In this document: positions 1,291 through 51,637 of the stretch, in pieces
How the letters are laid out: each line of letters begins with the position of its first letter
How positions within the stretch are numbered: position 1 is the stretch's first letter
DNA from: Planctomycetota bacterium
GTDB taxonomy: Bacteria > Planctomycetota > Phycisphaerae > UBA1845
Assembly (NCBI GenBank): GCA_016208685.1
Contig: JACQXM010000015.1
Coordinates: 141,098 to 205,097, forward strand
Direction of reading: 5' to 3'
Length of the DNA: 64,000 nt
Notes under the pieces: generated by a model
Databases searched by the model: none
What the model was told of the DNA's origin: nothing
The model's input: only the letters and a program-made list of their open reading frames with translations
Program-made: the position numbers and the translations under genes

Positions 1291-1308
1291 TTTCTCATTT
1301 TTGAGAAA
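1291..1308. promoter_or_regulatory. Perfect palindrome TTTCTCA-TTTT-TGAGAAA, candidate enhancer-binding-protein site
   Basis: 18-bp inverted repeat; the 20-mer tttctcatttttgagaaacc recurs exactly at 38381; about 100 bp upstream of a sigma-54-like promoter. Confidence 0.5.
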
Positions 1309-1405
1309 CCGGTTCCGTTTTTCCCCGCTTTTGAGAGAAAAGGGCCGCCAGCATGTCGGTCCCTTGCGCATTGTTATGGCGCGCGGCAGCGTGGGTGGCC
1401 CACGT

Positions 1406-1421
1406 TGGCATGACGATTGCA
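1406..1421 (+). promoter_or_regulatory. Sigma-54 (RpoN) promoter-like element
   Basis: TGGCATG-ACGA-TTGCA, GG-N10-GC spacing; 50 bp upstream of likely start codon at 1471. Confidence 0.7.
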
Positions 1422-1470: not shown

Positions 1471-2367
1471 ATGCTGCGATATGACCCTGAGAAGCAGGCG
1501 GAGGCGACCACGCTCGGCACGGCGGGCCGGGGCGCGCCGCGCCAAACCAAACTCGTTCGCCCGCTGCGGACGACGCTCCCGGTTTGGGTGGTAGCGTGGG
1601 CGGCGCCGGCGGCGCTTGCGCTGACCACGCAGACGCTCCGCCCGGTCGCGGACGGCACGATCGCCGACGGGGGCAGCTTCGGCACGATGGACGGCAGTCC
1701 CGACCACTGGGACTGGACCTTCAACCAATCGAGCTACGAGGGTGCGATAACCCTGCGACGCGGTGCACCGCCGCTGGCCCTCGAGCACCGCCTGGTTTGG
1801 GAGTTCGACCTGGCGACGGTGGCCGCCGGCTCACCGGTGACCGCCACGCTGACGTTCACCATCCGCGGCGCACCGCGGTTCCCCGCCGACGACGCGAATG
1901 TCCATGTGTACGCCTATCCTGCGGATCTGCTGGAACGGGCGGAGGACTTCGCCGCCGGCCCCGGGACCCTGGTGGGCAGCAGGATGATCGCCCCGTATCA
2001 GCCCGCCACGGCGTACACCCTGAACGTCTCGGCGGCCGTCTCGGCCGCTGTCGCCGGCAGCCGCAAGGTCGGCTTCCGCTTTCAGATCGATCCGGCGTCG
2101 ACCCACGAGGTCGATCAGGCCTTCGTGGATGCCCTTGATTCCGACCCCACGAGCAAGCCATTCCTCACGGTCACCGGAAATATGCCGGGTGACGCCAACG
2201 GCGACGGCGATGTGGACCTGGGCGACTACATCGTGTTCCAGAGCTGCTTCGCACACCCCGGGGCGGGATACGTACCCGCGTGCGCCGTGTTCGACGCCGA
2301 CGGCGACACGAATGTGGACCTCTCCGACTTCCTCGAGTTCCAGAACCGTTTCACCGGCCGGAAGTGA
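1471..2367 (+). CDS. Secreted DNRLRE-like protein with C-terminal dockerin-like EF-hand pair
   Basis: ORF 1417..2367; start moved to internal Met at 1471 because the first Met overlaps the promoter; DANGDGDVDLGDY and DADGDTNVDLSDF calcium-binding loops. Confidence 0.75.
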   Translation: MLRYDPEKQAEATTLGTAGRGAPRQTKLVRPLRTTLPVWVVAWAAPAALALTTQTLRPVADGTIADGGSFGTMDGSPDHWDWTFNQSSYEGAITLRRGAPPLALEHRLVWEFDLATVAAGSPVTATLTFTIRGAPRFPADDANVHVYAYPADLLERAEDFAAGPGTLVGSRMIAPYQPATAYTLNVSAAVSAAVAGSRKVGFRFQIDPASTHEVDQAFVDALDSDPTSKPFLTVTGNMPGDANGDGDVDLGDYIVFQSCFAHPGAGYVPACAVFDADGDTNVDLSDFLEFQNRFTGRK

Positions 2368-2605
2368 GTTGGATGGGCCGACTGGCCCAGCCCTGCGCAG
2401 GCTCTCTTGACCCTGGCCGAGGGCCCGGCCCCTGAAGCCGCTTAACTCGCTTTCTCAACGAGCTGCGGGGGGCGCTGCGGCCGATATCCCACCCCGCCGC
2501 CGGCATTTTCCCAGTTTTGGTTCGGACTTAAGTCGTTTCGTGACAACGTCTTAGCACCTCACCAGCCCACTTTCCAGGCCCCGGACGGCGGTTATCGTGC
2601 CGTTC

Positions 2606-2621
2606 TGGTATGGCGATTGCC
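2606..2621 (+). promoter_or_regulatory. Sigma-54 promoter-like element
   Basis: TGGTATG-GCGA-TTGCC, GG-N10-GC; closely resembles the element at 1406. Confidence 0.55.
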
Positions 2622-2699: not shown

Positions 2700-5600
2700 A
2701 TGGTCGCCATTTGCACCTACATGGTCGTGGCCGCTACCTTGGGCCAAACCTCGAGCGTCACATACGCCACCCGCTATGCCACGGGAACCGAGTTTCCGTC
2801 CCGCGTCGCGGTCTCGCCCGGCGGCACGTTGTACGTGACCGATCCCCCGCTGAAGCAAGTCGTCGAGTACGACGCCACGGGCACGGTGCTCGCGACCTAC
2901 GCCGTCTCCCAGGAGCCGGTGGGGATCGCCGTCCATGCCGACGGACGCGTGTTCGTCTCGCGGGCCGACGGCAAGGTGGGCGTGTACAGCTCGGCGTTCG
3001 TGTTCCAGAGCCTGCTCAACGCCTCGCCCATGACCATGGGCGCCCCGAACGACATGGAGTTCGACGCCACCGCCATGGAACTCTACGTGGTCGACACCGA
3101 GGACGCCCAGGTGCTGGTCTTTGAAGAGTCATCTCCCGGGGCGTGGACGCTGGCTCGAGCCTGGGGAACCGACGGCGGCGGACTGGGTGAGTTCGTTTCG
3201 CCGCTGGCGATCGCCGTGGATCCGGTCCGCGAGCACGTCATCGTCACCGACGCCGACAACTTCCGCATCCAGGTGTTCGACACGGCGGGGACCGTGCTTT
3301 TCAAATTCGGCTATCGCATGCTCTATACCGCTACCCAGGAAGTCGGCTGGGTCGTGCGGGCGCAGGGCGTGGCGCTGGACGACTGCGGCAACATCTACCT
3401 CGCCGACGCCATGATGGGCACGGTGCGTGTGTTCGACCCCGCGGGGGGTGAACTCAGCGCCACTCATGCTCCGGCGATCGGCTACGGAACCGGCGCGGGG
3501 CAACTTCGCACCCCGAGTGATCTGACCATCGACGGCGCAGGCAACCTTTACGTGGCCAACACCAGCAACGCCTCCGTCGAAGTGTACGACGTGGTGTGCA
3601 CGGTGGGAACGCTGGCCGCCACCACGCCCGCGACCGACGAGGTGCGTACGTCGCGTTCCCGCAAGGGTTCGCGGCTGGGCATCCGCCTGCCGGACAACCC
3701 CTTCGACCTGGTGGGCGCCATCGCCACCGGCCTTTACTCCGGCGGGTTCGACGTCAACTTCGATCGCAAGGTGAACCTGGCGGACCTGGAGCTCGTGGTG
3801 CGGCACTTCGGCGCGGGCACGGTTCAGGATTTCCTGTCGTACGACGGCGGCCCGCTTGGCGCTGCGTCGGGCACCTATGACGCGCCGCACGTGATCGGCA
3901 TTGCGAACGCTTGCGGCCGGTGCCACTCCGTGGACGGCGCGCCGGGCGGGATGCTCACCGCCGCCGGGCAGGAGAATCTGTGTTTGTCGTGCCACAACCC
4001 GGCGGGAATCGCCATGGGCAAGCCGATCGGCGCCGGCACCACCGGCGGGTCGCACCCGTGGGGCGTGGCCGCGGACGACGCCGACCCCGGTCCGGCGGCC
4101 GGCTCCCTGGTAAGCCTGCACCTGGACAACGGCGATGTGCGTTGCGGCACTTGCCACAATCAGCACGAGGCCTTCCGCGGCACGTGCCAGATCGGCGGTA
4201 TCCAGCCGCCGCCGCCGCTGCCGCACATCGGTCGCTGCATCGACGGCCCGTTCGTCGGCAAGCTGTGTCAGGCAGACTATCAGTGCGACAACCTGTACGT
4301 TCGCACCGGGGGCGACAAGATCGAACTGTGCGGCGAGTGCCACAAGGAATACGACGAGTGGCTGCACGCCGGGCACTCGGAAGAGTACGCCGATCCCTGG
4401 TTCCACTATGACTGGAGCATGGGCAACAACTGGTTGTGCACCGGGCCGGGCACGCCATACGCCTATTGCACGGGCGAGGGCGTGGGCACGGCCGCATCGA
4501 CCGCCGCGGCGGTCTGCACCGGCGCCGGAACGCCTTTGGCCTGCTGCACCGGAGCGGGCACCGGACCAACCTGCACCGTGTCCAACGCGGGATGCAGCGG
4601 TCCCGGCACGCCCTTCGCCTGCTGCACGGGCGTGGGAACGGGCAACTGTGCCAACAACCTCTCCGCGGCTGCGTGCACCGGACCGGGAACGCCAATGGCC
4701 TGCTGCACCGGCGCGGGAACCGGGAGCTGTTCCAGCCGTGAGGCGTGCCGGCAGTGTCACTCCGGTGAGGGTTACATTGATTTCTCGCGGGATTTCCAGG
4801 ACGGCACGGTGGCGACCTCTACCCACCGCGGCACGTTCCGCGTTGCGGACTGCCTGGTCTGTCATGCCACGCACGGGATGGCGCAGGACGACGAACTGCT
4901 GAGGATCTACGACACGGTGCGCCTGCCCACGGGGCAAGTGCTCAGCGGCCTTGGCGCGGGCGCTACTTGCGTGGCGTGTCATAACGGTCGATCCGTTCCG
5001 CCGGTTCCGAACACGCCCGGCGTTTCCTCGCCGCACTACCTGAATGGCGGCGCCATGCTTGAGGGCATCAACGCCGTGCTCACCTTCCCCACGGGACCGG
5101 GAGCAGTCACCTATGCCGTGAGCAACTCGAACCACACCACCAACGCGGGGATCTTCTGCACGACCTGCCATATGGCGCCCGGTCCGTCGTCCGGTCCCGG
5201 TGCGGGCAAAGTCGGCGGCCACACCTTCAACCTGAAGGTGCATGATCCGGCCGATCCGGACTATGGCTTCGAGAACGTGGACAACACCTGCAACTCGGCC
5301 GGATGCCACACCGGCGTTACGTCGATCAACCGTACGGCATACGGCGACTACGACGGCGACGGGACCATCGAAGGCGTGCAGGATGAGACGCGCGGCCTGC
5401 TGGCGCGGCTGAAGGACGCGCTATACGGCGCGGGAGCCTCCAGGTTGCTTGTCAATGGAGTCACCGGAGCGGCCACCACCGAGCCGGAGATCTGCACCGC
5501 GGCCGGCGTGCCGCTGGCCTGCTGTACCGGAGTACGTACCGGCCCGACGTGCGTGGATCCCGACGCCGAGCCGGCGAATCCCTACTGGACGACGACGCGA

Positions 5601-5879
5601 TGCACCGGCGGCACGAGGGCCGGGCTGCCCTGCCGGACGGGGACGGGCACAGCGCCGTTTGACTGCCCGGGCGGCGGAACCTGCACCGCTGCGGTGCCCT
5701 CCGGCAACACTCTGGCGACCGTCGAAGACGGCATCTGGAATTGGGAGTACGTCGACAACAGCGGCGACTTGGGCGTGAAGAACACGGGCTACGCCATCGG
5801 CATCCTTCAGATTGCCTACAAAGGCGTGACCGGCGTTGCCGTGCCCGGCGCCGCGTATCGCTACTCGCCGGCTCCGTGA
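2700..5879 (+). CDS. NHL-repeat beta-propeller fused to multiheme c-type cytochrome with Cys-rich repeats
   Basis: ORF 2610..5879; start at 2700 preceded by ggagg; NHL-type repeats then eight CxxCH plus CNSAGCH, and CTGxGTPxACCTGxGTGxC repeats. Confidence 0.8.
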   Translation: MVAICTYMVVAATLGQTSSVTYATRYATGTEFPSRVAVSPGGTLYVTDPPLKQVVEYDATGTVLATYAVSQEPVGIAVHADGRVFVSRADGKVGVYSSAFVFQSLLNASPMTMGAPNDMEFDATAMELYVVDTEDAQVLVFEESSPGAWTLARAWGTDGGGLGEFVSPLAIAVDPVREHVIVTDADNFRIQVFDTAGTVLFKFGYRMLYTATQEVGWVVRAQGVALDDCGNIYLADAMMGTVRVFDPAGGELSATHAPAIGYGTGAGQLRTPSDLTIDGAGNLYVANTSNASVEVYDVVCTVGTLAATTPATDEVRTSRSRKGSRLGIRLPDNPFDLVGAIATGLYSGGFDVNFDRKVNLADLELVVRHFGAGTVQDFLSYDGGPLGAASGTYDAPHVIGIANACGRCHSVDGAPGGMLTAAGQENLCLSCHNPAGIAMGKPIGAGTTGGSHPWGVAADDADPGPAAGSLVSLHLDNGDVRCGTCHNQHEAFRGTCQIGGIQPPPPLPHIGRCIDGPFVGKLCQADYQCDNLYVRTGGDKIELCGECHKEYDEWLHAGHSEEYADPWFHYDWSMGNNWLCTGPGTPYAYCTGEGVGTAASTAAAVCTGAGTPLACCTGAGTGPTCTVSNAGCSGPGTPFACCTGVGTGNCANNLSAAACTGPGTPMACCTGAGTGSCSSREACRQCHSGEGYIDFSRDFQDGTVATSTHRGTFRVADCLVCHATHGMAQDDELLRIYDTVRLPTGQVLSGLGAGATCVACHNGRSVPPVPNTPGVSSPHYLNGGAMLEGINAVLTFPTGPGAVTYAVSNSNHTTNAGIFCTTCHMAPGPSSGPGAGKVGGHTFNLKVHDPADPDYGFENVDNTCNSAGCHTGVTSINRTAYGDYDGDGTIEGVQDETRGLLARLKDALYGAGASRLLVNGVTGAATTEPEICTAAGVPLACCTGVRTGPTCVDPDAEPANPYWTTTRCTGGTRAGLPCRTGTGTAPFDCPGGGTCTAAVPSGNTLATVEDGIWNWEYVDNSGDLGVKNTGYAIGILQIAYKGVTGVAVPGAAYRYSPAP

Positions 5880-10464: not shown

Positions 10465-10698
10465 GAGTGAGCCTCCCGGAAGGTCCGACGGCCCGGCATT
10501 TCGCCCGCGAAGGCCGGCGCGGCGGGCGGGCGGCTGAAGAACCTCACTGGCCGTCCGCCGTGGTTCATCGACGCGGTTTCTTCCGCACATAAGTGCGGGA
10601 TTTCACGCAGCGTCCGTTCCGGTTTTCCGGTTGTCGCCGCGGCGCCGTTCGTAAACTGTGCCGATCCTGCGGCAGACGATTCTCAAAAATGGAAAACC

Positions 10699-10720
10699 GA
10701 ATTCCCGGACTTGGGAATTC
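10699..10720. promoter_or_regulatory. Inverted repeat gaattccc-ggactt-gggaattc upstream of resB-like gene
   Basis: Perfect 8-bp arms in the divergent intergenic region. Confidence 0.4.
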
Positions 10721-14628: not shown

Positions 14629-14735
14629 GCGGCCCAAGTCGTGCCGCGGCACCGCGCGCGGGGTCGCTTTCCCGGCGGAATCCGCCGCGTTCATCCAGCT
14701 TAACAGCCGCTTTTTCGCCTGCACTTCCGCGCCCG

Positions 14736-14751
14736 TGGCACGGGGCTTGCA
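14736..14751 (+). promoter_or_regulatory. Sigma-54 promoter, consensus match
   Basis: TGGCACG-GGGC-TTGCA, GG-N10-GC, 64 bp upstream of ATG 14815. Confidence 0.75.
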
Positions 14752-21226: not shown

Positions 21227-21247
21227 CGCGGGGGGGGTGCTGTCGCC

Positions 21248-21263
21248 TGGCACCCGGATTGCT
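21248..21263 (+). promoter_or_regulatory. Sigma-54 promoter-like element
   Basis: TGGCACC-CGGA-TTGCT, GG-N10-GC, in the gap between the two CbcL-like genes. Confidence 0.65.
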
Positions 21264-33202: not shown

Positions 33203-35485
33203 TCACGGCGGATTCAGACCCGTCATCTGGCGGACGGTTTCATACACCGCCCGACCGGTAGGGTCGAAGGGATCCACCAGCACCATGCGGTCGAACACCG
33301 GCGAATCGAGCGTCGCCGGACGATGGCACTCGTTGCAACCCAGTGCCGGCACCGGCGAGTAGCCCAGCGCCTTGTCCGCGCTAAGCACCGGCGGATGCAG
33401 CTCGTACGCCTCGCCCCATTCCACTTTGATGCCGCTGGTTTCATGCGCGAAGGAGCTGACGCCGTCCGGCGAGCCGGGATCCTCGAACCATACGCGCCGC
33501 CCCTTAACCAGCACCGGGTTGGCGGCCACCGGCACTCCGTAGCTGTCCATGCCCTTCAGCGCCTGAATGTACGCCAGAATCTCCTCCGGGCGGTTTACTT
33601 CCGGCTTACCGTCGTGATTATCGTCCGTCACCACCGGCAGCGGCGCGTTGCTCGTGATCTGTCGCACGCGCCAGAGAACGATAGGGGAGACGATGTCATC
33701 GCTGAAATCCAGCGGTGTGGCCTGGCGATGCCAGTCCCCCCAGTACACCGCGATCTCGAACTTCAAGGGAAACAACCGCCGCACGCCGTCGCTGTCGTTT
33801 TTGAAACTGAAGCCCGGATACCAGCGGCTCTTGTCCGGGTTCGCAGGATCGACGGGGTCCGCCGAGAGGAACTCCTCCGCCCAGTAGCTTACCGGCGTTC
33901 CGGTGACGGAGTTATCCACCACGCTGCGCGTGCGCCCCAGGGCATACGGGATGTGGCACGCCTGGCAGGAGAACACGCTGAACGGTCCGTTTTCGCCCGG
34001 CACGGAGCCGATGAGGTGAACCTGGACGTCGCCGGGAACCACCGGCGCGTCGGGATGCCGCACGGGACTGTCCTCCAGATGACAGTCGCGACAGGAACGG
34101 AGATTCACCCAATCCAGGTCGTCGCGGTAGATGTTGAACTGCGATTTGCCCTTGGCGAAGTTGTGGTCGATGTTGCCGCGGTGACAGTAGTTGCATGCCG
34201 TGCTGCGCTCCGGAGGCACGTCGTTGGTGGGATCGGTGTCGCGCAGCTTGTTGAAGCCCGCATAGTGCACGTCGCGGTCGTCGAACCAGACGGACCCGCG
34301 CTTCGCCGGCCAGCTCTGACTGTGGCAGCCCCAGCAGGAATAGTCGGTCGGCGGGTACGCGATGGCGCGGGGAGAGAGGCTGACGGTGGAATCGTCCCCG
34401 ACCGTCAGGCTGCCATCGGACACTCCGGCGGAGTAGTCGATTTGCAGGCGCGGGGGAACGACGGTGGTCTCCAGATGCGAGAACCAGCCTTGGCCCGCGG
34501 TAGAGGCCGCGGCAAACGCGGGAACCGGCGCGCCCTGGTCGTCCACCAGCGCCGCCCCCGCGACCAGCACGTTTGCGCGCCGTAGTTGAATGAGGTCGCG
34601 ACCGTTGGCTTGCCGCCGATCCTTGCGGTGGCAGAAGAGGCAGTCGGGTTCGGCGACCCCCGTCACGTCCCAGGGCGCCGGGCGGAAGGCCGTGCCATCA
34701 ACGGGATTGAGCGTGGCGTAATCACCATCGAGCAGCACCTCGGCTGCGGTTTTGCCCAACGCCTGGTAGCCGAATCGGCCGGTGAGCACGTCGTAGTAGC
34801 GCTGCCCGTCGCGGTCGAACTCCATACCCCCGCCGCCGGTGTGGCATCCACCGCAGCCCCCCATCCACCAGAAGGCGGTTTGATCCATGGCCGAGGGCCC
34901 CGCGGCGTTTTTCGGTGCCATCTGGCGGTCGTTCTTGGGCCTCCAGGTGCCGTACATCCCCGCCGACTGTATCCACCAGCGGCCATCGCCGAAGTGGTCG
35001 TCGCCCATGACCATGTTGCCCGCCGTGTCCGTGCGCCCCTGCTGGAAGAGGAACCCGTTGGCGATGTGGTCGACGTCGTGGCATCCGCCGCAGGTGTTGC
35101 GGCTGCTGTAGGGCGCCGTGGATGTGACGGTCAACACTTGTCCCGCGACGTCCTTCAGCGGGATCGGCAGGTGACCCGCGGCGCGCAGGAAGGCCGCGAC
35201 ATCGGCTAGATCCACGTCGTCGTCGTGGTCGTCATCCACGTCGGTGATGCAGGGTGCGGCCGGCGCCTGCCCGGGGCCGCGGTAGCACGCTTTCAGGGTG
35301 AGGAAATCCGCCGGATCGACGTAGCCGCTGGCGTCGAAATCAAAACTGGTTCCGGCAGCCGGCAGCGCTGCGAGCGCCAGCAGGGCAACGATTGCCGCAG
35401 TCGCACCCAGGGCCGAGGAGGCGCAGCGCGGTTCACGGTCCGGTGCAGTTCTCGTGGAACGCCTTCCAATCCAGAAGGTCAACAT
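33203..35485 (-). CDS. Octaheme c-type cytochrome with N-terminal dockerin-like EF-hand segment
   Basis: Eight CxxCH (CGGCH x2, CLFCH, CWGCH, CNYCH, CRDCH, CQACH, CNECH); DFDASGYVDPADFLTLKACY. Confidence 0.8.
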   Translation of the reverse strand: MLTFWIGRRSTRTAPDREPRCASSALGATAAIVALLALAALPAAGTSFDFDASGYVDPADFLTLKACYRGPGQAPAAPCITDVDDDHDDDVDLADVAAFLRAAGHLPIPLKDVAGQVLTVTSTAPYSSRNTCGGCHDVDHIANGFLFQQGRTDTAGNMVMGDDHFGDGRWWIQSAGMYGTWRPKNDRQMAPKNAAGPSAMDQTAFWWMGGCGGCHTGGGGMEFDRDGQRYYDVLTGRFGYQALGKTAAEVLLDGDYATLNPVDGTAFRPAPWDVTGVAEPDCLFCHRKDRRQANGRDLIQLRRANVLVAGAALVDDQGAPVPAFAAASTAGQGWFSHLETTVVPPRLQIDYSAGVSDGSLTVGDDSTVSLSPRAIAYPPTDYSCWGCHSQSWPAKRGSVWFDDRDVHYAGFNKLRDTDPTNDVPPERSTACNYCHRGNIDHNFAKGKSQFNIYRDDLDWVNLRSCRDCHLEDSPVRHPDAPVVPGDVQVHLIGSVPGENGPFSVFSCQACHIPYALGRTRSVVDNSVTGTPVSYWAEEFLSADPVDPANPDKSRWYPGFSFKNDSDGVRRLFPLKFEIAVYWGDWHRQATPLDFSDDIVSPIVLWRVRQITSNAPLPVVTDDNHDGKPEVNRPEEILAYIQALKGMDSYGVPVAANPVLVKGRRVWFEDPGSPDGVSSFAHETSGIKVEWGEAYELHPPVLSADKALGYSPVPALGCNECHRPATLDSPVFDRMVLVDPFDPTGRAVYETVRQMTGLNPP

Positions 35486-37953
35486 CGTCGTCTCCGTCAA
35501 AGTCGAGATTGATGGAACACTCATGTGACGGCGGGTTGTAGCCCGGCGTCCCCTCTGGGCCGCTGTAACACTGCTGGATCGACCCGATATCGCCAAGGTC
35601 CAGGTCGCCATCCAAATCGCGATCGCCCACCAAACAGCCCAGGCGGCAGGGCGCCTCGATGCAGTCCGGAACGCCCAGGTCCCGGATGCACTGGTCGCGC
35701 GGGTAATCGTCCCAACAGATCAGGCCGTCGAACCAGCAGCAGCGTCCCACGGCCGGGCAGGCGCAGGCCCCCGGCGGCGTGGTCAGCGGGCAACGGTCGT
35801 AGCACTCGGTAATGCCGTCGCCGTCGGTGTCGTCCGGCGGGTCGCAGACGTCGGGAATGCCGTCGAGATCGCAGTCCGGTTCGCAGCCGTCGGGCCGGGT
35901 GTTGCCGTTGCAGTCGGCGCAGGACAGATCGCCGGGCGGGCATTGCAGCACGTCGCAGGGATCGGCGATGCCGTTGCTGTTGCAGTCGGGTTGGCACTCG
36001 TCCGGCATGCCGTTGGCGTCGCAGTCCACGCTGCCGCCGCACGGCGGGGCGCAGTCCGCGGCGGCACAGTCAAGGTCGCAGGAATCGGGAACGCCATTGC
36101 CGTTGCAGTCGATGATGTCGAGCTTGGGACCGATGGTGGGCGCCGACAGCTCCATGGGAAATCCCGGCTTGAAGACGCCGATGGTCACGCTGGTGGCCTC
36201 CGGCTCGACGTTGGTGTCGAAGCCGAAGCTGTAGATGGAGTCGAAGCGCAAGGCGTTGGCGTCGGGATTGTTGACGTAGGTAGCCGTGGACCATACCACC
36301 GCGTTGCCCGCCACTCCGCCCGGCCAGTCGGTCAGGTCGTACGTCTCGCCGCTGTGATGGTCGACATCGTGGAACCAGATGTTGGCCACGATGGCCGCGG
36401 CGGGCAGCGGCACGCTGAACAGCCGCGCGCCGCGGTCGGAGTTCAGGTTCTGGAGGGCGTAGGAATAGCGCCAGACACCGCTGTTGGTGAGCGTGGCTTT
36501 GGCGGCAAGGATGAAAAGTCCTTCACCGGGAACGCGCAGGTCGGTTTCCACGACCTCGGGATCGGCGTCCTGCCAGGCTCGGACCGCGGCCTGCTGTCGT
36601 TGTGTCTGCCATGCGTCATCGATCAGCACCTGATAGACGAACGGCTCCGGCTCCGCGACCAGTACCTCGCGGTAGGAGGCACTGTTGTCCTGATTACCGG
36701 CGGAGGAGTCGTCGGGGTGGACGTAATGCCCCTCGATGAAGTACCGGGCGCCGGGATTGAACGCCGGGTCCAGGTCCGCGTCGTGCACTTGCAGCCGCCG
36801 ATCGACCTTGGAAGTGATGGAGGGCGCGGTCCACGGATAGGGGAAGTAGCCCGTGTGCGGGTTCACCTGCGAACGTGGGCTCATGTTCGACTGCGCCCCG
36901 TTGAGGGCGGCGCTGTACGGGTCGCTGCATCCCACGCCGAGCTGGGTTCCGTCCGTGGGATCGCGGCACGTCGAACACATGCTCGAAGCGATCGTCCTTC
37001 AGGCGGTAGAGGTTCTGGATGATGACGGGGTGCTGGTTGGTGTACGCCACCCAATCCGCGCGTTCGGTGCCGATGTTGCAGGCGGTGGTCCCGATGGCAT
37101 AGGCGGTAATGTCCCCGACCCGTGGCTCGTAGCGCTGCACACTCTGCAGTTCGGCGACGATGACGTCACTGCCGGTGGGGGAACCGCCCCCGCCGTCCTT
37201 GAGCGCGTAGGGGAGGCCGCCGCAGGAACTGGGTGCGTCGGGCAGTTCCTTGTCGGAGAGCAGGGTCGCGGACAGGTGCATCCGGCCAATGACGGTTCCC
37301 GCCGCCGGTAGCCCCAACTGCGCCGCCCAGGCATCCGTCACCAACAGCTCGGCCACCAGCGACAGCTCGCCGCCGCGCCGCTGGAGCATGGTGTCGCCGG
37401 ACATCCAAACCGGTGTGGCCTCCTGCGCGGGAGCCAGTGTGCTGGAGAGGTAAAGAACGCCGTGCTCCGCCTCAACCAGCAGATTCCCCAATACCATGCG
37501 TTCGCCGGGGCGATCGACGAGCATGGCGCCGCAAGCCTCGAACGCCCCGTCCACCAGGCTCGGGGCACCGCCGACAAACTCCAGTCGCAACCACCCGTCG
37601 GGACTGATAACCAGCGCGACGTGCGTGCCCGCGGATTCCTCATCCAACTGCCCCTGGTAAACGAACTCCAGCTCCAGGTCCGCCAGGGCCGTGGGATCGA
37701 AATCGAACGTGACTACGCCTTCGAGTTGACCTTCGGCAACGGTCCGAGTTTCGCCGCCCCCTGGGACCGTCCCGTCGACATCCTTCGGGACTCGCGCCTC
37801 TCGATCGACCCCACCCTGTGGCGTCGGCGCAACACGGTCCTCCGACCGCGCCGGTGCCGCGGCGATGGAACCCCAAACCGTGGTCAGTGCCAGTCCGAAG
37901 GTGACGGCAACGAATGGCGAATGGTAAAGATGGTGCCTCCGTGGGCCGCTCAT
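35433..37953 (-). pseudogene. Secreted planctomycete-type protein with dockerin-like C-terminus, split by frameshift/deletion
   Basis: ORF 36694..38040 carries the N-terminal half (to RLKDDRFEHV) and ORF 35433..36980 the C-terminal half (from CRDPTDGTQLGVGCSDPYSAALNG); junction about 36960-36990. Confidence 0.7.
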
Positions 37954-38220
37954 ACGCCCCTCCTTTTCGGAGTAGTCGGCGCCCGGAGGAACGAGAGCCG
38001 CGGCTCCCGGCCTTCGTGTGCTTTTTCGGCGGCCTCCCATCGCGGGCCGGATCTCTCACGGCCTACGCGATCAAGCTCCGTCCGTCGTTGCTTTCCGCTC
38101 CCTCGCGCACGACGGCCGTTGCCGCCGCACCCGGCGTTTTCCTGCCTCGCGCGGACTCCTCGAACCACCGTCCGCCGCACAAACAGGACCGGGCGCACCC
38201 TCTCCTTTACCCCCCAATGC

Positions 38221-38236
38221 AGCAATCTCCATGCCA
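38221..38236 (-). promoter_or_regulatory. Sigma-54 promoter-like element
   Basis: Minus strand TGGCATG-GAGA-TTGCT, GG-N10-GC; upstream of the 37953-30955 minus-strand gene series. Confidence 0.65.
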
Positions 38237-38380
38237 GCGGCTTCCCGGAGCGAGGTTAAGAATCTTATCAAGAAAACGGACGAGCCCCGCCGGCGGTGCC
38301 CGACCGGGCCATTCCCCACCGCCGGTCGCGGGATTTCACCCACCGTACGGGCGGCCGATGGCCTTGGCGTGCGGCGAGCC

Positions 38381-38398
38381 TTTCTCATTTTTGAGAAA
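38381..38398. promoter_or_regulatory. Second exact copy of TTTCTCA-TTTT-TGAGAAA palindrome
   Basis: Identical 20-mer to 1291-1310; about 150 bp upstream of the minus-strand sigma-54 element. Confidence 0.5.
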
Positions 38399-38574
38399 CC
38401 CGCGGGACGCGAAGGCGGCGGCGGCGACGCCCACATGCGCGGCGCGCGGGTCGTCGGGGCAGTCCGGCGTCGGCGACAGGGGAGTCGCGCCCGGTCCGGC
38501 GCTCGGCGTGGTGCCCGCACGCGACACAGGTACTTCGGCTTGAATCGCCCGGCGCAGGGCTGAGAACGGGCCAT

Positions 38575-50659: not shown

Positions 50660-51637
50660 TTAGGGGCTCTGTTTCTCAACTTTCTTCCGTTTTGGCCTTT
50701 CTTTGCTTTCTTGCTCAGGCGGTTCCTCCGTCGGCGCCCAACGCTCGAGTTCGTGCAACAGCATGCCGTGGATCTCTGGGTCGAGGCCCATCTCCTCCAC
50801 GGCAGGGCCATACATACAAGACTCGAGAGCTCCCCGAAAATCCCGCCTCGCACGTAATGCCTCCTCTGGCAACCCGGCCTTCGTGGCCCGGTACGCCTCC
50901 ATCGCCAACTCATACAACCACGGCATCTCCTCCCGAAACACGCTCGCCAGCATGACCAACCGGATAGGGTCATGGGAGCCACGCCTTAGCATGCGCATCA
51001 TGTCCATGCACATCATCGGGCGGATTCTCATCCTCCGACGACGTGGAAGCATCGGCCCACCGTCCGAGAGCTCCCGGAGTCTGGAATCGAGCGAACGAAC
51101 GCTCACGACAAGTTCCTCAAGAATCTCATGCTGTGGTCGTACGTGCTTCTCAGTTTGCGGCTGCTTCGGAATCCCCTTGACTTCTTTCTCCAGTTTGGGC
51201 CACAGTGCGTCAAATAATTCACGTGCCCGCGCCTCCGGAACCTCATTATTCGCGGCCTGATTCATCGAGTCGATGACCTCGTTCAACCCCTTCCTCTCAA
51301 CCTTCTTGGCTTGGAACTGTGCAAGTGGTCCAGTGATGTCCCGAATCTCCAAATCCAGGAGGAGCGGAATAACCTTACTTCCTTGCATTGTCTTGGCGAG
51401 TGCTCCGGCCTCGAAGAGAACCCACGGCGAAGCGACATTCTCCCGAGTCACGCAGATGATTCCGAAATTCGAGTCCGCCAATTCTTTCGCGACAACCTCC
51501 CCCCACCGTTCGCCTGCTTCGATGTCGACCTCGGAGACCCAAGGCTCGACATTGTGCAGGACGAGTGGAATCCAATCGTGCAAAGCCTGTGCCAATGCCC
51601 TACTACGTTCACCACTCCAGCCAATAAAGACTTTCAT
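50660..51637 (-). CDS. TIR-domain protein
   Basis: MKVFIGWSGERSRALAQALHDWIPLVLHNVEPWVSEVDIEAGERWGEVVAKELADSNFGIICVTRENVASPWVLFEAGAL. Confidence 0.8.
   Translation of the reverse strand: MKVFIGWSGERSRALAQALHDWIPLVLHNVEPWVSEVDIEAGERWGEVVAKELADSNFGIICVTRENVASPWVLFEAGALAKTMQGSKVIPLLLDLEIRDITGPLAQFQAKKVERKGLNEVIDSMNQAANNEVPEARARELFDALWPKLEKEVKGIPKQPQTEKHVRPQHEILEELVVSVRSLDSRLRELSDGGPMLPRRRRMRIRPMMCMDMMRMLRRGSHDPIRLVMLASVFREEMPWLYELAMEAYRATKAGLPEEALRARRDFRGALESCMYGPAVEEMGLDPEIHGMLLHELERWAPTEEPPEQESKERPKRKKVEKQSP

Follow-up and report, generated by a model that had tools for sequence, protein, structure and literature searches.

The question that this locus raises is what a perfect palindrome, found twice in a stretch of 64,000 nucleotides from a planctomycete of the class Phycisphaerae, is for. 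We refer to this whole stretch as the window. The first-pass annotation had proposed that the palindrome is an enhancer site for a sigma-54 activator (bEBP), and that an identical 20-mer is located at 38381-38400. Both copies are indeed present at these positions:

1291-1308: copy 1, predicted strong upstream activating site, TTTCTCATTTTTGAGAAA (TTTCTCA-TTTT-TGAGAAA)
38381-38398: copy 2, the identical palindrome; the shared 20-mer, with CC, is 38381-38400

No other exact copy exists in the genome (4,790,831 bp, 77 contigs), where composition alone would give about 1e-5 per 64 kb and 0.0008 per genome. Allowing up to one mismatch, TTCTCAN4TGAGAA was found at 15 sites genome-wide and the reversed control pattern at 0, and a chance origin of the palindrome is rejected by the composition expectation together with this control. 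Multihaem cytochrome genes are found near the palindrome copies both in this genome and in G043. The presence of four Y1 transposase genes in the genome might suggest a relic of a REP/RAYT repetitive element; however, the flanks of all four carry other palindromes and no copy of the one in the window, and the two exact copies are both at promoters, which makes such an origin barely credible. As a separate observation, the Y1 (RAYT-like) genes in L052, L053 and L055 have GC-rich palindromic repeats in their flanks (CGCCCTCCGGGCG among them), which are apparently REP elements.

Each copy was found upstream of a strong sigma-54 promoter:

1405-1421 (+): sigma-54 -24/-12 element TTGGCATGACGATTGCA, rank 1 in 365 kb with the sigma-54 matrix
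38221-38237 (-): sigma-54 element CTGGCATGGAGATTGCT, rank 3 in 365 kb with the same matrix

The distance from copy 1 to its element is 97 bp, in agreement with the spacing of about 100 bp that had been described. Copy 2, also reported to precede a sigma-54 element, lies 144 bp from it, with the refinement that this promoter is on the minus strand and copy 2 therefore serves the leftward gene. A genome-wide search for an association with RpoN promoters, recommended as a check, gave a non-random result, both exact copies being 97-144 bp upstream of strong elements. Searched with a strict sigma-54 pattern, the genome has 20 strong sites, compared with 5 matches to the control pattern; both window promoters are among the 20, and a strong palindrome precedes these two within 260 bp and none of the other 18. 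The chance for two of three exact 16-mer palindromes to fall 60-200 bp upstream of one of these 20 sites is about 1e-6. The generic pattern TGGCACN5TTGCA, with two mismatches, showed no enrichment in the window (18 vs 17 in the control). The 20 strong promoters, together with nine clear bEBPs (PF00158) encoded in the genome, indicate that rpoN is presumably present. The window also contains other good sigma-54 elements that lack the palindrome and are probably under other activators, at 14735-14751 (+) and 21247-21263 (+), upstream of Fe-S/NrfD-type and multihaem/cytochrome b561-type genes, and at 51579-51595 (-).

To establish which sequence is recognised at promoters of this kind, a nearby multihaem cytochrome, L018:13102-13707 (-), was scanned against public genomes, and about 20 close orthologues were found, from Phycisphaerae or other Planctomycetota assemblies. 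By eye, most of the regions upstream of these orthologues contain a -24/-12-like element and one or two palindromes further up. We then enumerated without bias 4096 six-base half-sites with spacers of 0 to 8 (36,864 models) in 18 of these upstream regions. TTCCCA-N4, TTCCCG-N4, TTCTCG-N4 and their close relatives ranked at the top, being present in up to 11 of the 18 regions against 0.2 expected, and TGGCAC-N5, which corresponds to the sigma-54 element, was also among the top models. The matrix derived from the enumerated sites describes a dyad-symmetric site, TTCYCR-N4-YGRGAA. Its training set comprised 18 promoters, 17 from other genomes and one from this genome, and included neither window copy; copies 1 and 2 share the top score in the 365 kb scanned (23.8 for copy 1). 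In 10 of the 18 orthologous cytochrome promoters two sites occur 30 or 31 bp apart, and copy 1 has such a companion:

1321-1338: a weaker site, TTCCCCGCTTTTGAGAGA, partner to copy 1 at 30 bp downstream, matrix score 11.0

The partner contains the core of a stretch related to the palindrome, cttttgagagaaaag (1329-1343), which had already been noted as a half-site; the overlap between them gives that remark its meaning as the second member of a pair spaced by 30 bp. The matrix scan found no partner site for copy 2. Among less closely related cytochrome homologues (mostly 32-43 percent identity), tandem matches are few and show no clear peak at 30-31 bp, and therefore we claim the motif for the family-level group only. 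About a dozen of the cytochrome promoters (L132-L150, L239, L244, L247, L249 and, in this genome, L018 upstream of 13707 on the minus strand) also carry an AT-rich motif (~AAGYTNTT...AACNNNTTA) 47-51 bp upstream of the -24 element. From its placement and a partial resemblance it might be an IHF site, and a search between enhancer and promoter at copy 1 gave no convincing match.

The pairing is found across the family. Searching 51 family genomes with up to two mismatches gave 28 tandem matches and 3 matches to the reversed control; an off-register tandem pattern used as control gave 11 against 2 for its reversed form. Copy 1 with its partner is the sole match, at the same threshold, in its own genome. 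The genes that follow intergenic tandem matches encode either NHL-repeat proteins bearing several CXXCH motifs or orthologues of the 4-haem cytochrome. A -24/-12 element of at least 10 bits is located within 150 bp downstream in 13 of the 17 tandem copies examined in relatives (two of these 13 share one promoter), the shuffled rate of such elements being about 0.009 per 200 bp, and the distance from pair to promoter is mostly 95-150 bp.

These data bear on two other explanations of the palindrome. It could be the operator of a repressor or of a conventional activator independent of sigma-54, next to which the sigma-54 elements would be incidental. Several strong palindromes in the genome agree with this, as no sigma-54 element was recognised near C4:70973, C4:70855, C56:7955 or C60:231663, and a sigma-70-like sequence is seen by eye downstream of C4:70973. 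However, the pairing at 30-31 bp and the -24/-12 element 95-150 bp downstream recur far above chance, and no sigma-70-like promoter was found around copy 1 or copy 2; hence we regard an operator as very unlikely. It may be mentioned that C4:70855 and C4:70973 (L019:9856-9991) are strong palindromes 118 bp apart, upstream of a gene for an IPTL-CTERM protein. The second explanation is a terminator, attenuator or other RNA hairpin, which had been named as the finding that would speak against an enhancer. The palindrome is able to fold as a hairpin, and in G021 a long hairpin that immediately follows a gene has a copy (TTTCTCATTTCTGAGAAA, L024:1475-1545) at its tip. Against it, no terminator-like site was found at copy 1, the hairpins called near copy 2 sit elsewhere, neither copy has a GC-rich stem with a T-tract as in intrinsic terminators, and there is no Rfam match in the window. 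Moreover, the sites are placed upstream of a promoter, vary as a DNA dyad (TTCYCR) and form pairs with helical spacing, all of which makes an RNA element highly improbable. The G021 hairpin itself is probably a terminator and a different thing.

Taken as bEBP enhancers, or upstream activating sites, the palindromes of the orthologous promoters are arranged as expected, in pairs spaced by about three helical turns, with the sigma-54 promoter downstream. This supports the proposal of the first-pass annotation, and from sequence comparison we assign it a probability of about 0.86.

Genes were called throughout with a simple codon-usage script, not with a standard gene finder. The following features may belong to the control from copy 1:

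1471-2367 (+): secreted protein with a dockerin-like C-terminus, first gene downstream of copy 1
2604-2620 (+): CTGGTATGGCGATTGCC, a second, weak sigma-54-like element that precedes the NHL-cytochrome gene, score 10.3
2700-5879 (+): NHL-repeat protein with paired CXXCH haem motifs

The match of 1471-2367 to Dockerin_1 (E = 2.6e-4) is just below the cut-off. Homologues of this gene adjoin the NHL-cytochrome gene in several relatives, as a conserved neighbour; several relatives have the tandem site between these two genes, and here it precedes both. The NHL-repeat multihaem gene is the probable main target of the copy 1 site, and in many family members a homologue of it (32-57 percent identity) is the gene that immediately follows a tandem site. 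Copy 2 and another part of the window add the following features:

35433-38040 (-): secreted protein gene with a dockerin-like C-terminus, downstream of copy 2
10679-10696 and 10701-10718: two further candidate sites, 22 bp apart, matrix scores 20.4 each

The first is read in two overlapping frames, 36694-38040 (N-terminal) and 35433-36980 (C-terminal), and is therefore frameshifted or misassembled. The candidate sites are upstream of ResB/CcsA-type cytochrome-assembly genes, and no sigma-54 element was recognised near them.

Which activator would bind these sites is suggested by the neighbourhood of copy 1:

C60:137917-139308: NtrC-type response regulator (activator) gene, just left of the window
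C60:139301-140794 (= L018:18204-19697): histidine kinase gene, which the activator gene directly follows, 0.3 kb before the window
C60:134196-134804: leftward cytochrome operon, with its own site pair at C60:135093/135124

The kinase and activator genes are thus placed between two divergent target operons, the leftward cytochrome operon and that of copy 1. Their synteny with target genes recurs in relatives at about 50-66 percent identity, and in L237 and L238/L291 sites are present on both sides of the activator region. The activator contains a receiver (Response_reg), a Sigma54_activat domain with the sequence GAFTGA, and a Fis HTH_8. The recognition helix of the activator, LGIGLSSLYRK, hardly varies from one orthologue to another and differs from those of the other activators of this genome. 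Orthologues with 63-74 percent identity were found in 21 of 51 family genomes. They are present in 9 of 11 genomes with a multihaem-associated pair against 12 of 40 without it (Fisher p = 0.003; p = 0.017 over all 17 tandem matches). The test is modest, being made on related genomes, many of them incomplete, and with the 11 selected once the contexts had been read.

It is also possible, if unlikely, that the sites are sigma-54 enhancers bound by a different one, or by several, of the nine bEBPs. In addition to that number of PF00158 activators, two family genomes, the fragmentary G040 and G044 (98 percent complete), have tandem pairs and no detected orthologue of the neighbouring activator. 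On the other hand, the synteny of kinase and activator with the targets in many genomes, the significant co-occurrence of activator and pair, and a recognition helix that is constant among orthologues and differs from those of the other activators all point to the neighbour. Several genomes that bear bEBPs have single or weak sites only. Since the genome has nine clear bEBPs, our assignment rests on synteny and co-occurrence, and from these we think it probable that the product of C60:137917-139308 binds the palindromes.

Regarding the kinase, an alignment of 13 sequences has seven cysteine columns, outside any Pfam domain found, with a conservation of at least 80 percent, a value that leans upwards because the sequences were partly picked by their cysteine pattern. 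The cysteine-rich stretch ends in CPD and is possibly a redox or metal sensor. A match of the kinase to the NCBIfam two-CW domain was sub-threshold (14.6 vs 35 bits).

The proposed arrangement resembles known systems. Enhancers of the NtrC family, for example upstream of E. coli glnA, are paired palindromes about three helical turns apart. A -24/-12 promoter follows at a distance of about 100 bp, and the regulator combines a receiver, an AAA+ domain with GAFTGA and a Fis HTH. Paired-site layout, promoter distance and activator domain set are shared with the present locus, whereas the half-site (TTCYCR here, of GCAC/GTGC type for NtrC), the targets (multihaem cytochromes) and the phylum are different. 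The activator is not NtrC proper, as it scores far below the NCBIfam NtrC cut-off (383 vs 558.6 bits), and by the NCBIfam cut-offs it is not any other named activator. Among the open-access literature, the nearest functional parallel may be the predicted DVU3142-Ohc regulon of Desulfovibrio vulgaris, in which conserved activator sites and sigma-54 promoters are associated with the octahaem OhcA complex of sulphate reducers (PMC4641369). Also there, the gene of a sigma-54 activator adjoins a multihaem cytochrome operon and is divergent from it; however, the present activator has a histidine kinase encoded next to it and two operons as targets, and the likeness is one of layout. The PrsK-PrsR two-component system likewise has an activator of the Fis type and is associated with RpoN-dependent genes whose products are exported; in that case these are PEP-CTERM genes, instead of genes for multihaem cytochromes and dockerin-like proteins (PMC9850573). 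Identity with this system is rejected by the scores of both activator (374.9 vs 502.6 bits, TIGR02915) and kinase (92.4 vs 300 bits, TIGR02916). In Geobacter sulfurreducens, RpoN influences the cytochromes that serve extracellular electron transfer; the available part of that report describes no such tandem site or kinase/activator pair, and the phylum is unrelated (PMC2725144).

Altogether, the comparisons above make it very probable that the palindrome serves as docking site for a two-component activator, which would switch on genes of secreted multihaem cytochromes. We infer the following course of events. The kinase would phosphorylate the neighbouring NtrC-family activator, which may then oligomerise on a single site or on a tandem pair 30-31 bp apart and loop across the intervening ~70-150 bp to the sigma-54 polymerase. 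There, its AAA+/GAFTGA domain would open the polymerase at the -24/-12 promoter, and the divergent operons of secreted multihaem cytochromes (1471/2700-5879 in the window and C60:134196-134804) would be switched on, while copy 2 would bring a secreted dockerin-like protein into the regulon. As for the signal, the conserved cysteine-rich stretch of the kinase and the nature of the target genes lead us to guess at redox state, metal or haem status. More tentatively, and as a possibility that we would hold at less than even odds, this may be a dedicated, undescribed two-component regulon of Phycisphaerae in which a cysteine-rich kinase senses redox, metal or haem and controls, via sigma-54, an extracellular electron-transfer system formed by the secreted multihaem cytochromes, the assembly genes and the dockerin-like surface proteins.

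The switch is of a known kind, and a comparison of some 30 uncultured genomes yielded its motif, its gene set and its likely regulator. In Planctomycetota, sigma-54 regulation has received little attention, the host group of Planctomycetes is itself little studied, and the main text of a recent survey of sigma-54 regulons does not mention cytochromes (PMC12316311). For uncultured bacteria with an abundance of multihaem cytochromes, the present comparison defines the motif, the promoter architecture, the targets and a probable regulator at once. This may provide a testable handle on when these organisms produce their electron-transfer proteins, and a motif with which further members could be found in related genomes.
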